A DNA stretch of 54,072 bases from Blautia sp. (GTDB taxonomy: Bacteria; Bacillota; Clostridia; Lachnospirales; Lachnospiraceae), in assembly GCA_022770365.1 (NCBI GenBank), contig JALEHU010000103.1, positions 1 to 54,072 on the forward strand, given 5' to 3'. A model generated the notes under the pieces. The model was given only the letters and a program-made list of their open reading frames with translations. It did not search any database and was not told the DNA's origin. Shown one piece after another: positions 8,491-11,284 of this stretch. A program made the position numbers and the translations under genes. Each line of letters opens with the position of its first letter. The first letter of the stretch is position 1.

Positions 8491-10242
8491 ATGGAATTAG
8501 TAAGTCAGAAAATGCGTGAACTGGCACCGGAGCTGGATCCGCTTCGTATTGGAACCGGCTGGAAACCGGAAGATTTATCAAAACCGCAGATATTTATTGA
8601 GAGTACTTTTGGAGACAGTCATCCGGGAAGCGGTCATCTGGACATTCTGGTGGAAGAAGTTCGTAAGGGTGCGGAGGAAGCAGGCGGACATGGGGCAAGA
8701 TATCACTGCACCGATATCTGTGACGGCGAGAGCCAGGGAACTGACGGTATTAACTACAGCCTTGCAAGCCGTGAAATGATCGCTAATATGATTGAGATTC
8801 ACGCAAATGCCACACCATTTGATGCAGGTGTGTATCTGGCAAGCTGTGATAAAGGACTTCCGGGAAATCTTATGGGCCTTGCCCGTGTAAATATTCCTTC
8901 TATCGTGGTACCGGGAGGCACCATGAATGCAGGACCGGAGATGCTGACTCTGGAGCAGCTGGGGATGTACAGCGCAAAATATCAGAGAGGTGAGATTGAC
9001 GAGGAAAAGCTGAACTGGGCCAAATGCAATGCATGCCCAAGCTGCGGCGCATGTTCTTTTATCGGAACTGCTTCCACCATGCAGATCATGGCTGAAGCCC
9101 TGGGGCTTGCTCTGCCGGGAAGCACACTGATGCCTGCCACAAGCCCTGATCTTCTGGCTTTTGCCAGACAGGCAGGAAAACGTGCGGTAGAAATGGCTCA
9201 GGAGCCGGGAATGAAACCCGGTGAGATCGTAACTCTGGAAAGCTTTGAAAATGCAATTCTGGTGCACGCAGCTGTTTCCGGAAGTACCAACTGTCTTCTG
9301 CATCTGCCTGCCATTGCCCATGAATTCGGCATTGAGATCACTGGTGACACCTTTGACAGACTGCACAGAAATGCACGTTATCTTCTGGATGTCCGTCCGG
9401 CGGGAAGATGGCCGGCAGAGGTGTTCTATTATGCCGGCGGTGTGCCTGCCATTATGGAAGAAATCAAAGAACATCTGCATCTGGATGTAAAAACCGTGAC
9501 AGGCAAAACTCTGGGAGAAAATCTGGAGGATCTGAAAAAGAACGGCTTTTATGAACGATGCAACAAGTGGCTGCAGGATTTTAACGCCCGTTACGGTGTT
9601 TCTGTAACCAAAGAAGACATTATCCGCCCTTATGACAAAGCCATCGGAACAGATGGAAGCATTGCGATTCTCCGGGGAAATCTGGCACCGGAGGGTGCAG
9701 TGATCAAGCACACAGCCTGCCCGAAGGAAATGTTCAAAGCTGTTTTGAACGCAAGGCCGTTTGACAGCGAGGAAGAATGCCTGGATGCCGTTCTGAAGCA
9801 TAAAGTACAGAAAGGTGATGCTGTATTTATCCGTTATGAAGGTCCAAAAGGCAGCGGTATGCCGGAAATGTTCTATACATCCGAGGCAATCAGCAGTGAT
9901 AAGGAGCTTGGCAGAAGTATCGCGCTGATCACAGACGGACGTTTTTCCGGTGCGTCTACCGGACCGGTAATCGGACACTGCAGCCCGGAGGCCTGCGACG
10001 GAGGTCCTATTGCGTTGGTGGAAGAAGGCGATTTGATCGAAATCGATGTGATGGAACGTAAACTGAACATCATCGGTATTCGTGGTGAGAGAAAGACGCC
10101 GGAGGAAGTGGATGCGGTTCTTGCAGAGCGCAGGAAAAACTGGAAGCCAAGAGAAAGAAAGTATAAGAAAGGCGTATTACGCCTGTTCAGTGAACATGCG
10201 GTAAGTCCGATGAAAGGGGCTTACCTGGAATATGACGATTAA
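8491..10242 (+). CDS. IlvD/Edd-family dehydratase, probably an aldonate dehydratase
   Basis: This protein of 583 residues carries the family's iron-sulfur cysteines (ASCDKGLPGN and ACPSCGACSFIGTAST) and the late DGRFSGASTGPVIGHCSPEA motif. The family dehydrates dihydroxy acids: IlvD makes branched-chain keto acids, Edd acts on 6-phosphogluconate and others on gluconate, xylonate or arabinonate. Placement between GntP and the kdgA-kdgK region, with no ilvB/ilvC genes nearby, favours a sugar-acid dehydratase yielding 2-keto-3-deoxygluconate. I start it at 8491, since an AAAGGA site lies 8 bases upstream; an ATG at 8473 would add six residues but sits before that site. The exact substrate is unresolved, and an anabolic IlvD role cannot be excluded. 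Confidence 0.82.
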   Translation: MELVSQKMRELAPELDPLRIGTGWKPEDLSKPQIFIESTFGDSHPGSGHLDILVEEVRKGAEEAGGHGARYHCTDICDGESQGTDGINYSLASREMIANMIEIHANATPFDAGVYLASCDKGLPGNLMGLARVNIPSIVVPGGTMNAGPEMLTLEQLGMYSAKYQRGEIDEEKLNWAKCNACPSCGACSFIGTASTMQIMAEALGLALPGSTLMPATSPDLLAFARQAGKRAVEMAQEPGMKPGEIVTLESFENAILVHAAVSGSTNCLLHLPAIAHEFGIEITGDTFDRLHRNARYLLDVRPAGRWPAEVFYYAGGVPAIMEEIKEHLHLDVKTVTGKTLGENLEDLKKNGFYERCNKWLQDFNARYGVSVTKEDIIRPYDKAIGTDGSIAILRGNLAPEGAVIKHTACPKEMFKAVLNARPFDSEEECLDAVLKHKVQKGDAVFIRYEGPKGSGMPEMFYTSEAISSDKELGRSIALITDGRFSGASTGPVIGHCSPEACDGGPIALVEEGDLIEIDVMERKLNIIGIRGERKTPEEVDAVLAERRKNWKPRERKYKKGVLRLFSEHAVSPMKGAYLEYDD

Positions 10243-10251
10243 TTAGAATGT

Positions 10252-10296
10252 GAGCCATTGCCTTTGCAGATTTCTATCATGCAGAAGCAGTGGCTC
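10252..10296. repeat. 10-bp stem hairpin after the dehydratase gene
   Basis: GAGCCATTGC at 10252-10261 pairs with 10287-10296 with one wobble. No T-run follows, so it is either a poor terminator or the outermost stem of the structured element that begins at 10301. Confidence 0.6.
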
Positions 10297-10379
10297 GGTC
10301 GCTATTTAGTTCATTAAGCTTTCGCCGGGACTTTAGCACAAGGCGGTAAGTAGGGAGGGGGAGGCGTGAAAAACTGGAC

Positions 10380-10643
10380 GCGCAGAAGAGAGGCGGGAGA
10401 CCGGGGTGCGGAAGTGCTTACGTTCTGTTTCTGTGCGGGCTTCGGCGCCTAAGAAGTACTAATCCCCTGTATTTTTGCTAAAAACGCGAACCGTCTTTCT
10501 GGACTCGCCTTCGGCTCAAACAGTCAGAAATCCGGCCCGCAACGCAAAAATCCACGGGACAAATACTTCTAAGACGCCTGCAGAGTGCACTGAAACAGGA
10601 CGTAAGCACTTCCTCACCCCGGTCTCCCGCCTCTCTCCTGCGC
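10380..10643. repeat. 264-bp imperfect palindrome (arm 1 of the structured element)
   Basis: Outer arms 10380-10436 and 10587-10643 are complementary at 53 of 57 bases. Inner arms 10444-10478 and 10544-10578 continue the pairing at 28 of 35. The centre has shorter pairings and a GCCTTCGGC apex near 10507-10515. Such length is far beyond chance and beyond any ordinary terminator. Confidence 0.9.
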
Positions 10644-10792
10644 TGGCAGTTGGGTTTCCCTTAAAGGGGGAATGAAAAATCAGGGAGGGAATCGAGAGCG
10701 ATAGAGAGCTTGTGCGTTCATCACTGTAATCATACCGCGTGTCATAGCCTGCCGGGTTTTTCACCCACAACCTATAATGAAACCAACTGTCA

Positions 10793-11000
10793 GCCGGAGG
10801 GAGAGACTATGCACCCGTCACAGAACCTTTGGCGAAAAGAGAGTCCGAAGATCCAGCGCTTAGTAAGCACTTGGTGAGGAGCACACACGCGACGAACCTA
10901 CCCCGTAAGGGGTCCGGCGCGAAGCGCAGGAGTGCGGCTTAGCGCTTAGCTGAGGAGGAACGGGCCGTTCTGTGACGGGTGCATAGTCTCTCCCTCCGGC
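10793..11000. repeat. 34-bp perfect inverted repeat enclosing 140 bases (arm 3 of the structured element)
   Basis: Arms 10793-10826 and 10967-11000 are perfectly complementary over 34 bases. The enclosed segment has an ACCCC-GTAA-GGGGT hairpin at 10900-10913 and a repeated AGCGCTTAG at 10855-10863 and 10941-10949. Confidence 0.95.
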
Positions 11001-11284
11001 GTACTGTTTTTCATGCCACCCACTTCATGTTTTCATACTTGAATAAAACTATCGGCGAAAGCCAACGGATCCCCGGTAGTTCACTAAATAGCAATTTTTT
11101 CTATCGAAAAAACGTACTGCTGACATAGTAAAAATGAACAAATACTGCACTGTGATGCAATGCGCGTTTTTCACAAAAATATTTTATAATAAAACTTTTC
11201 TTTTGCGGGCCTGCGAAAAAACTGATAAAATAAACATAGGAAATATGTCGTAAGATGCTGTGGCTTGTATGGAAAGGATGTGGA

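Follow-up and report, generated by a model that had tools for sequence, protein, structure and literature searches.

The 0.8-kb folded stretch described here is one copy of a large repeated DNA hairpin family of gut Lachnospiraceae (Blautia and relatives). It lies in the window, by which we mean the whole 54,072-nucleotide stretch of Blautia DNA that was analysed, and in it an outer palindrome specific to the species encloses a type A hairpin unit and a type B unit in inverted orientation. On balance, and with modest confidence, we favor the reading that the window element is a composite copy of dispersed DNA hairpins that act as giant REP/REPIN-like single-strand elements. The dispersal, unit ends, structure, pair arrangement and replication orientation were observed directly; from them we infer single-strand transposition.

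The first-pass annotation had described this stretch as one closed four-way junction of helices nested beyond chance. The nesting was borne out: the minimum-energy fold of the element (-408.8 kcal/mol) shows three closing helices with three arms inside, and none of 20 dinucleotide shuffles folded as low (mean -270.9, z -17.6). Read from the sequence, the helices 10301-10310/11083-11092 and 10318-10327/11053-11062 are perfect and 10363-10374/11006-11017 has one G-T, and a separate inverted-repeat detection found arms that are 65 nt (89% complementary) and 42 nt (93%) long. The fold thus stands, but what looked like a single junction is built up from palindromes that are nested or lie side by side (Table 1). 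Likewise, the T6 run reported after the outer stem exists, but T follows the right end in only one (L038) of nine other readable copies, so the run probably does not belong to the element.

Table 1. Features of the window element and its surroundings, in positions of the window.
Feature	Position	Strand	Basis and remarks
Composite palindromic element, 792 bp	10301..11092	.	Ends common to other own-genome copies, and fold
Neighboring genes, one on each side: ilvD/edd-type dehydratase gene and CarD-like gene			Pfam
Left end of outer palindrome, GCTATTTAGT...GGCGG	10301..10346	+	Also on 67-bp, 422-bp and 1034-bp copies
Right end of outer palindrome, inverted	11048..11092	-	Partly diverged from left end; ACTAAATAGC and CGGCGAAAGC blocks retained
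Hairpin unit type A	10376..10645	+	Foot GGAC 10376-10379, hairpin 10380-10643, TG after stem; ends by copy comparison
Type A core	10441..10582	+	Conserved internal loops CTAAG, GCTAAA, GACTCGC...GCTCAAACAG, AACGC, CTAAG, CCTGCA
Middle arm, spacer between units A and B	10647..10789	.	Outer parts palindromic; center varies between copies
Hairpin unit type B, inverted relative to A	10790..11004	-	Foot GTAC 11001-11004; relatives in L004/L035, L009, L010, L013, L016
Type B core	10821..10972	-	CTAAG repeats in common with type A; alignment of five sequences
T6 run past right end	11095..11100	+	Probably host flank, outside element

About a dozen copies with the ends GCTATTTAGT...ACTAAATAGC occur in the window's own genome (3.0-Mb assembly, 130 contigs, 85% complete). 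They range from 44 to 1034 bp, and in most of them the ends extend to CGCTATTTAGT...ACTAAATAGCG. The outer palindrome also stands alone as a 67-bp hairpin (L033, L037, L039, L040), and other copies measure 44 bp (L044), 422 bp (L034), 792 bp (the window) and 1034 bp (L031). L038 resembles the 67-bp hairpins with its right end diverged, and an end is altered, missing or cut in L034 4467, L035, L036, L042 and L032, the last of which runs off its contig. At up to three mismatches, the end pattern matched 18 times in the own genome versus once for the control. The ends shared by the 67-, 422-, 792- and 1034-bp copies of one genome support the initial suggestion of a palindromic mobile element with GCTATTTAGT ends. 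The end pattern had no exact match in genome_contigs or viral_contigs, both of which may lack the own genome's record; on this sequence evidence, the outer ends look confined to the window species or its closest relatives.

Inverted repeats common to copies of 44 to 1034 bp, mostly with the same extension, fit a classical MITE, which is derived by deletion from a DDE transposon and moved by cut and paste when a resident transposase acts on its terminal inverted repeats. However, no target duplication is visible at the edges of the outer-end copies or at the ends of a unit pair in the complete chromosome G037, and no transposase was seen inside the own-genome copies read. One-ended copies were also considered as parts of a larger element with a transposase; L036 and L042 adjoin AICARFT/IMPCHase-type and radical-SAM-type genes, which are metabolic. 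Because the assembly is 85% complete, an intact transposon may be missing from it. We consider a MITE unlikely as an account of the family, and it may apply to the outer GCTATTTAGT ends alone, with the inner units moving otherwise.

Two of these copies differ in content from the window element. In L032 (4015-5055), about 500-600 bp of AT-rich unique DNA lies between two type A arms before the contig end cuts the copy, so composites may carry passenger sequence. L035 (2845-3690) is a composite copy between a penicillin-binding-protein-like and an mraY-like gene (recognised by eye), and the upstream gene's stop codon appears within the element's edge. An apparent 680-aa open reading frame (ORF) across the joined L035 flanks was discarded as two genes spuriously fused.

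The inner hairpin units have a defined anatomy, with limits set by G(G/T)AC at the hairpin foot and TG at the other end. From stem end to stem end they measure a median of 215 nt (range 192-362, 145 units), with an outer stem of 31 bp in one clade and up to about 90 elsewhere. The first half of the + strand reads foot G(G/T)AC, outer stem, GGTTTCGG, CTAAG motifs one helical turn apart, stem, GCTAAAnnC and stem; the second half reads apex ACTCGC...GCTCAnACAG, then AACGC, CTAAG and CCTGCA, outer stem and TG. Of 145 measurable units, 94 have GGAC or GTAC ahead of the stem (GGAC in 66, background 0.30%; GTAC in 28, background 0.25%) and 104 have TG behind it. CTAAG stands opposite CTAAG in many copies, which places an A-A mismatch in otherwise palindromic DNA, and both this A-A and the asymmetric loops are kept across the sampled genera. 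Type B units have the same CTAAG repeats and a different apex (five aligned sequences).

Covariation of the helices, proposed at first reading as a check, was found. In an alignment of 13 type A cores built without structure, 32 of 44 pairs have two-sided changes; when 97 matches were aligned by fitting to the model, 43 of 44 do. Both results exceed shuffled and slid controls. The resulting type A covariance model, R1, scores the window core at 152.5 bits, with the window sequence itself among the 13 seed sequences.

The units are widespread but patchy. When 60 genus genomes were searched at the DNA level, eight had matches, counting the own genome; among 13 loci from other genomes, 11 have a large inverted repeat at the match, one (L011) runs off its contig and one (L018) has none. 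R1 matched 29 of 64 genus genomes (E<=0.01, strict filters, 50 candidates scored per genome; 35 without a match), including 19 of the 34 of good quality. Four genomes searched together had 40, 16, 30 and 2 matches, i.e., up to 40 per genome. Ten candidates were scored per genome in the wider samples, which makes those counts lower bounds: at least 27 of 298 genomes and at least 26 of 280 genera in the Lachnospiraceae sample, and at least 4 of 299 genomes in the phylum sample, with the own genome counted and one match borderline. A gapped DNA pattern of the core found at least 118 stretches in genome records, and the labels among the matches listed are mostly Lachnospiraceae, Blautia and other Clostridia, with one Gastranaerophilales MAG. 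The same pattern had no match in viral contigs, and blastn of the 792-bp element against plasmids and phages gave none.

For unit-level counts we pooled 154 distinct units, leaving out L009. One set of 92 matches contributed 75 after 17 opposite-strand duplicates were left out, and another of 97 contributed 90 after removal of five that locus ends truncate, one lying at the edge of its locus and one opposite-strand duplicate; the model-fitted alignment above kept all 97. No unit (0 of 154) lies inside an ORF of >=90 aa, with ORFs lying within 140 nt of the unit set aside.

Such strong covariation, together with conserved internal-loop motifs and intergenic placement, could indicate a structured non-coding RNA family, or an mRNA-acting element, in many scattered copies whose fold acts as RNA. 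RNA under selection tolerates G-U on its working strand, not A-C. On the + strand, the outer stem (147 units) has 91 G-T versus 103 A-C, about equal, beside 5538 Watson-Crick pairs; the inner stem (130 units) has 20 versus 46, stem B (130 units) 28 versus 75 and stem A (47 scorable units) 7 versus 3. These per-stem counts replace one over 70 units that included conserved mismatches (305 A-C versus 154 G-T), and they stand without an internal RNA control, as just six tRNAs were usable (4 G-T, 2 A-C). Overall, the + strand carries no sign of RNA, and because G-T does not exceed A-C in the outer stem, its pairing looks kept as DNA. Read on the - strand, the inner stem (46 versus 20) and stem B (75 versus 28) have G-U above A-C but the outer stem does not, which would favor RNA if the - strand is the transcript; the inner part may have a - strand function.

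Gene context and signals were also compared with the expectations for RNA. Unit orientation relative to flanking genes is nearly even (38, 32, 26 and 25 of 121 classifiable units; 33 of 154 unclassified at locus edges), although the 5'-side gene points toward the unit somewhat more often than not (70 of 121), which leans to the RNA side. Consensus scans of 10200-11260 gave no promoter-like site (0.8 in shuffles) and four terminator-like sites (1.3 in shuffles, sd 1.1), none of them at the element's right end, where the original reading had placed the RNA's own terminator. Given the mismatch counts, the missing promoter-like site, the mixed gene orientations, the replication-linked orientation described below and up to 40 matches per genome, we do not favor an RNA gene with its own terminator, and we judge the RNA family as a whole decidedly unlikely. 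GOLLD, ROOL, OLE and raiA are large, folded, intergenic RNAs. The element was initially not recognised as any of these, and this agrees with Rfam, whose sole match in the whole window at gathering scores is a tRNA at 53.9 kb. At E<=10, positions 10200-11200 gave three sub-threshold miRNA-type matches: arm A matched MIR408 on either strand, and mir-278_2 fell immediately beyond the element. Unlike those RNAs, the present units occur in many copies per genome.

Preferred arrangement and orientation relative to replication instead point to a DNA element. Among 38 distinct neighbor pairs within 3 kb (L114 and L229 are the same locus and were entered once), 31 are (+,-), i.e., inverted with the feet outside, six are (+,+), one is (-,-) and none is (-,+). 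In G037, which has dnaA and dnaN at its start and whose sampled GC skew flips sign at 2.20-2.32 Mb with a few small windows deviating, 30 of 40 units are oriented with the fork (25 of 30 after leaving out pairs). Across all loci, 106 of 153 cases have the + strand as the G-rich one; with orthologues collapsed, the counts are 71 of 105 for |skew|>0.03 and 62 of 82 for |skew|>0.1. The bias is present where flanking genes oppose each other (39 of 50), and where skew and gene strand conflict, the unit goes with the skew in 11 of 14; gene strand and unit match each other in 77 of 117. As the + strand is G-rich and oriented with the fork, it corresponds to the lagging-strand template, the same template on which IS608-type elements act according to the accessible text of PMC6006769.

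One locus combines the units with other palindromes. In L372 (1066-3480; G028:C2:2149000-2154000), four tandem hairpin units are interleaved with five GTTTCACGTGAAAC palindromes, which we take to be parS-like, and a ParA-type ATPase gene is adjacent; a link of this arrangement to chromosome segregation is possible.

Replication-polar orientation and conserved loop motifs are also compatible with a domesticated chromosomal element, now immobile, where a host protein (nucleoid, gyrase, segregation or replication factor) would bind at sites of polar orientation, as is the G028 locus with its ParA-type neighbor. Two observations speak against this: the distribution is patchy (35 of 64 genus genomes without a match at E<=0.01), and near-identical units at separate places point to recent dispersal. 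We therefore find domestication distinctly unlikely.

Copy comparisons bear on how the units spread. Two G037 units 8.8 kb apart are near-identical from CAGC on the TG side to GTCCC at the foot and unrelated directly outside, with no target duplication visible at this one copy pair. In one genome, several pairs of >=93% identity have their starts no more than a few bases from the GGTAC foot, with varying 3' edges. Many close pairs of the same genome match in the inner part only, and their outer stems differ on both arms with symmetric limits. Orthologues show related changes: L093/L149 have 16 two-sided versus three one-sided changes, L093/L136 have eight paired and two unpaired two-sided changes and seven one-sided ones, and very close orthologues have single changes only. 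Some concerted process acts on the hairpin arms, and gene conversion or template switching could change arm pairs without transposition.

Taken to its limit, template switching would yield covariation without function, with quasi-palindrome correction keeping the arms complementary. The joint differences of both outer-stem arms between close copies, their symmetric limits and the two-sided changes among orthologues are in line with this. Yet such correction should erase conserved mismatches, whereas the A-A and asymmetric loops persist across the sampled genera, and it leaves the foot, pair order and replication orientation unexplained. As the whole explanation it is highly improbable.

Empty sites with target duplications, suggested early on as a sign of transposition, were sought at a few loci and no clean one was found: the L111/L177 and G022/G001 absences are deletions leaving remnants, a further locus had no flanking pair, and the window insertion site in G027 holds other DNA.

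We also searched for a partner enzyme, and no autonomous one was found. PF01797 (Y1 transposase, E<=1e-4) is present in 40 of 64 genus genomes and absent from G028, which has 28-30 R1 matches; a RAYT/IS200 enzyme was rejected on this ground as a needed resident mobiliser. Among 50 stretches around Y1 hits (a part of all Y1 hits, with two overlapping pairs), units were found only in L379 (one, about 0.6 kb from a Y1 gene) and L387 (one, about 3 kb away), and in none on both sides. PF12784 (PDDEXK_2, E<=0.001), considered as an Rpn/PDDEXK_2 partner because of a neighboring ORF in L021, is present in 42 of 64 genus genomes and absent from G051, which has 16 matches, and the L147 ORF has no Pfam hit. 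Thus, neither Y1 nor PDDEXK_2 is required as a resident partner, and the enzyme may be lost or undetected. ORF clusters near units are ordinary host families as judged by eye, which left no recurrent neighbor gene.

Two inverted pairs include genes. An IS605-type tnpA-tnpB element in G051 (L371, 3306-5024), at one stage read as an autonomous IS605 bounded by units, actually lies within the second hairpin of the pair. In L021 (1445-2888), an inverted unit pair flanks a GNAT acetyltransferase gene with the PDDEXK_2 gene alongside, and it is possible that this is a composite carrying a gene.

Integron attC sites are folded single strands with conserved extrahelical bases and a variable stem, and the units here likewise fold with conserved loops and a variable stem. 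Insertion by IS200/IS605 makes no target duplication, and none is visible here at one copy pair. The CGTC tag of some REPs stands 5' of the hairpin, whereas CGTC in the units is confined to the opposite strand and lies, partly paired, on the hairpin's 3' side. Our units resemble GTAG-tagged REP/REPINs (TnpA-REP/RAYT), as far as the available text of PMC3733652 and PMC6006769 describes these, in their many intergenic copies, a conserved tetranucleotide 5' of the hairpin foot, inverted pairs with tags outside and alternative complementary stem residues among copies. The 31 of 38 inverted pairs with none in (-,+) match the REP dimers with tags outside (HH arrangement) defined in the accessible part of PMC3733652, and the high-copy intergenic habit of REPs is matched by up to 40 matches per genome and 0 of 154 units in ORFs. 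The differences are that REPs carry a GTAG/GTGG or CGTC tag where the foot here is GGAC or GTAC, i.e., G(G/T)AC; that REPs are 20-65 nt with a short stem-loop where the units are a median of 215 nt with several conserved internal loops; that RAYT-mobilised REPs flank a Y1 gene, an arrangement not seen in the 50 stretches scanned; and that the units are found in Lachnospiraceae. Since foot and size both differ, the units fall outside the defined REP families. CGTC-tagged REPs are, in the text available from PMC3733652, also palindromic intergenic repeats without a dedicated transposase, but their stems are 8-9 bp. IS200/IS605 elements share hairpins at their ends and orientation with replication (PMC6006769, accessible text); the replication orientation is found here too, but the units have a far larger hairpin and no internal transposase gene, and Y1 genes are absent from one unit-rich genome. 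By analogy, the units appear to work like REP/REPIN or IS200/IS605-type single-strand hairpin elements at several times the size.

We recognised no paper on this hairpin family in the open-licence literature searched. As described in the accessible text of PMC8040213, 250 palindromic candidate structured RNAs were found in human microbiomes, 20 of which were not predicted terminators; the examples given there are 80-132 bp and from Bacteroidetes, whereas our units are longer and from Lachnospiraceae. The hairpin family could nonetheless be among those candidates.

Under the favored reading of single-strand hairpin elements, the lagging-strand template would be single-stranded at the replication fork, allowing the unit's + strand to fold. 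A putative single-strand recombinase would read the foot and mismatched loops and then copy the unit onto, or move it to, a further exposed strand, leaving no target duplication. Inverted pairs with the feet outside might be a mobile doublet or two insertions. The outer palindrome of the window species, which has GCTATTTAGT ends of its own, holds one type A unit and one type B unit in inverted orientation. More tentatively, and with rather less confidence, we suggest a new class of single-strand mobile DNA: Lachnospiraceae-wide hairpins of about 200-350 nt in which conserved A-A mismatches (CTAAG/CTAAG, one helical turn apart) and asymmetric loops mark the strand and would be read, folded at the lagging strand, by a putative non-Y1 recombinase. 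Such hairpins would be able to assemble into nested composites. If the mobile reading is true, some Lachnospiraceae hold dozens of hairpins per genome moved by a new single-strand enzyme, a tractable discovery target. Covariation usually proves RNA structure, and here nearly all pairs covary in a repeat with DNA-type outer-stem mismatches and replication orientation. This combination is a warning for RNA-discovery pipelines on gut metagenomes.

Two further observations concern individual units. A type A hairpin in L009 encloses a second palindrome (about 496-661, roughly 170 bp) that has AGAGCGTGTTTGAAAA ends and may be edged by CTAG on either side; its sequence suggests another palindromic repeat family. 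A comparison of L107 (1411-1500) and L178 shows three tandem copies of the foot region TTTTCTATGCGTCCC in G037 and a single one at the orthologous B. wexlerae locus.
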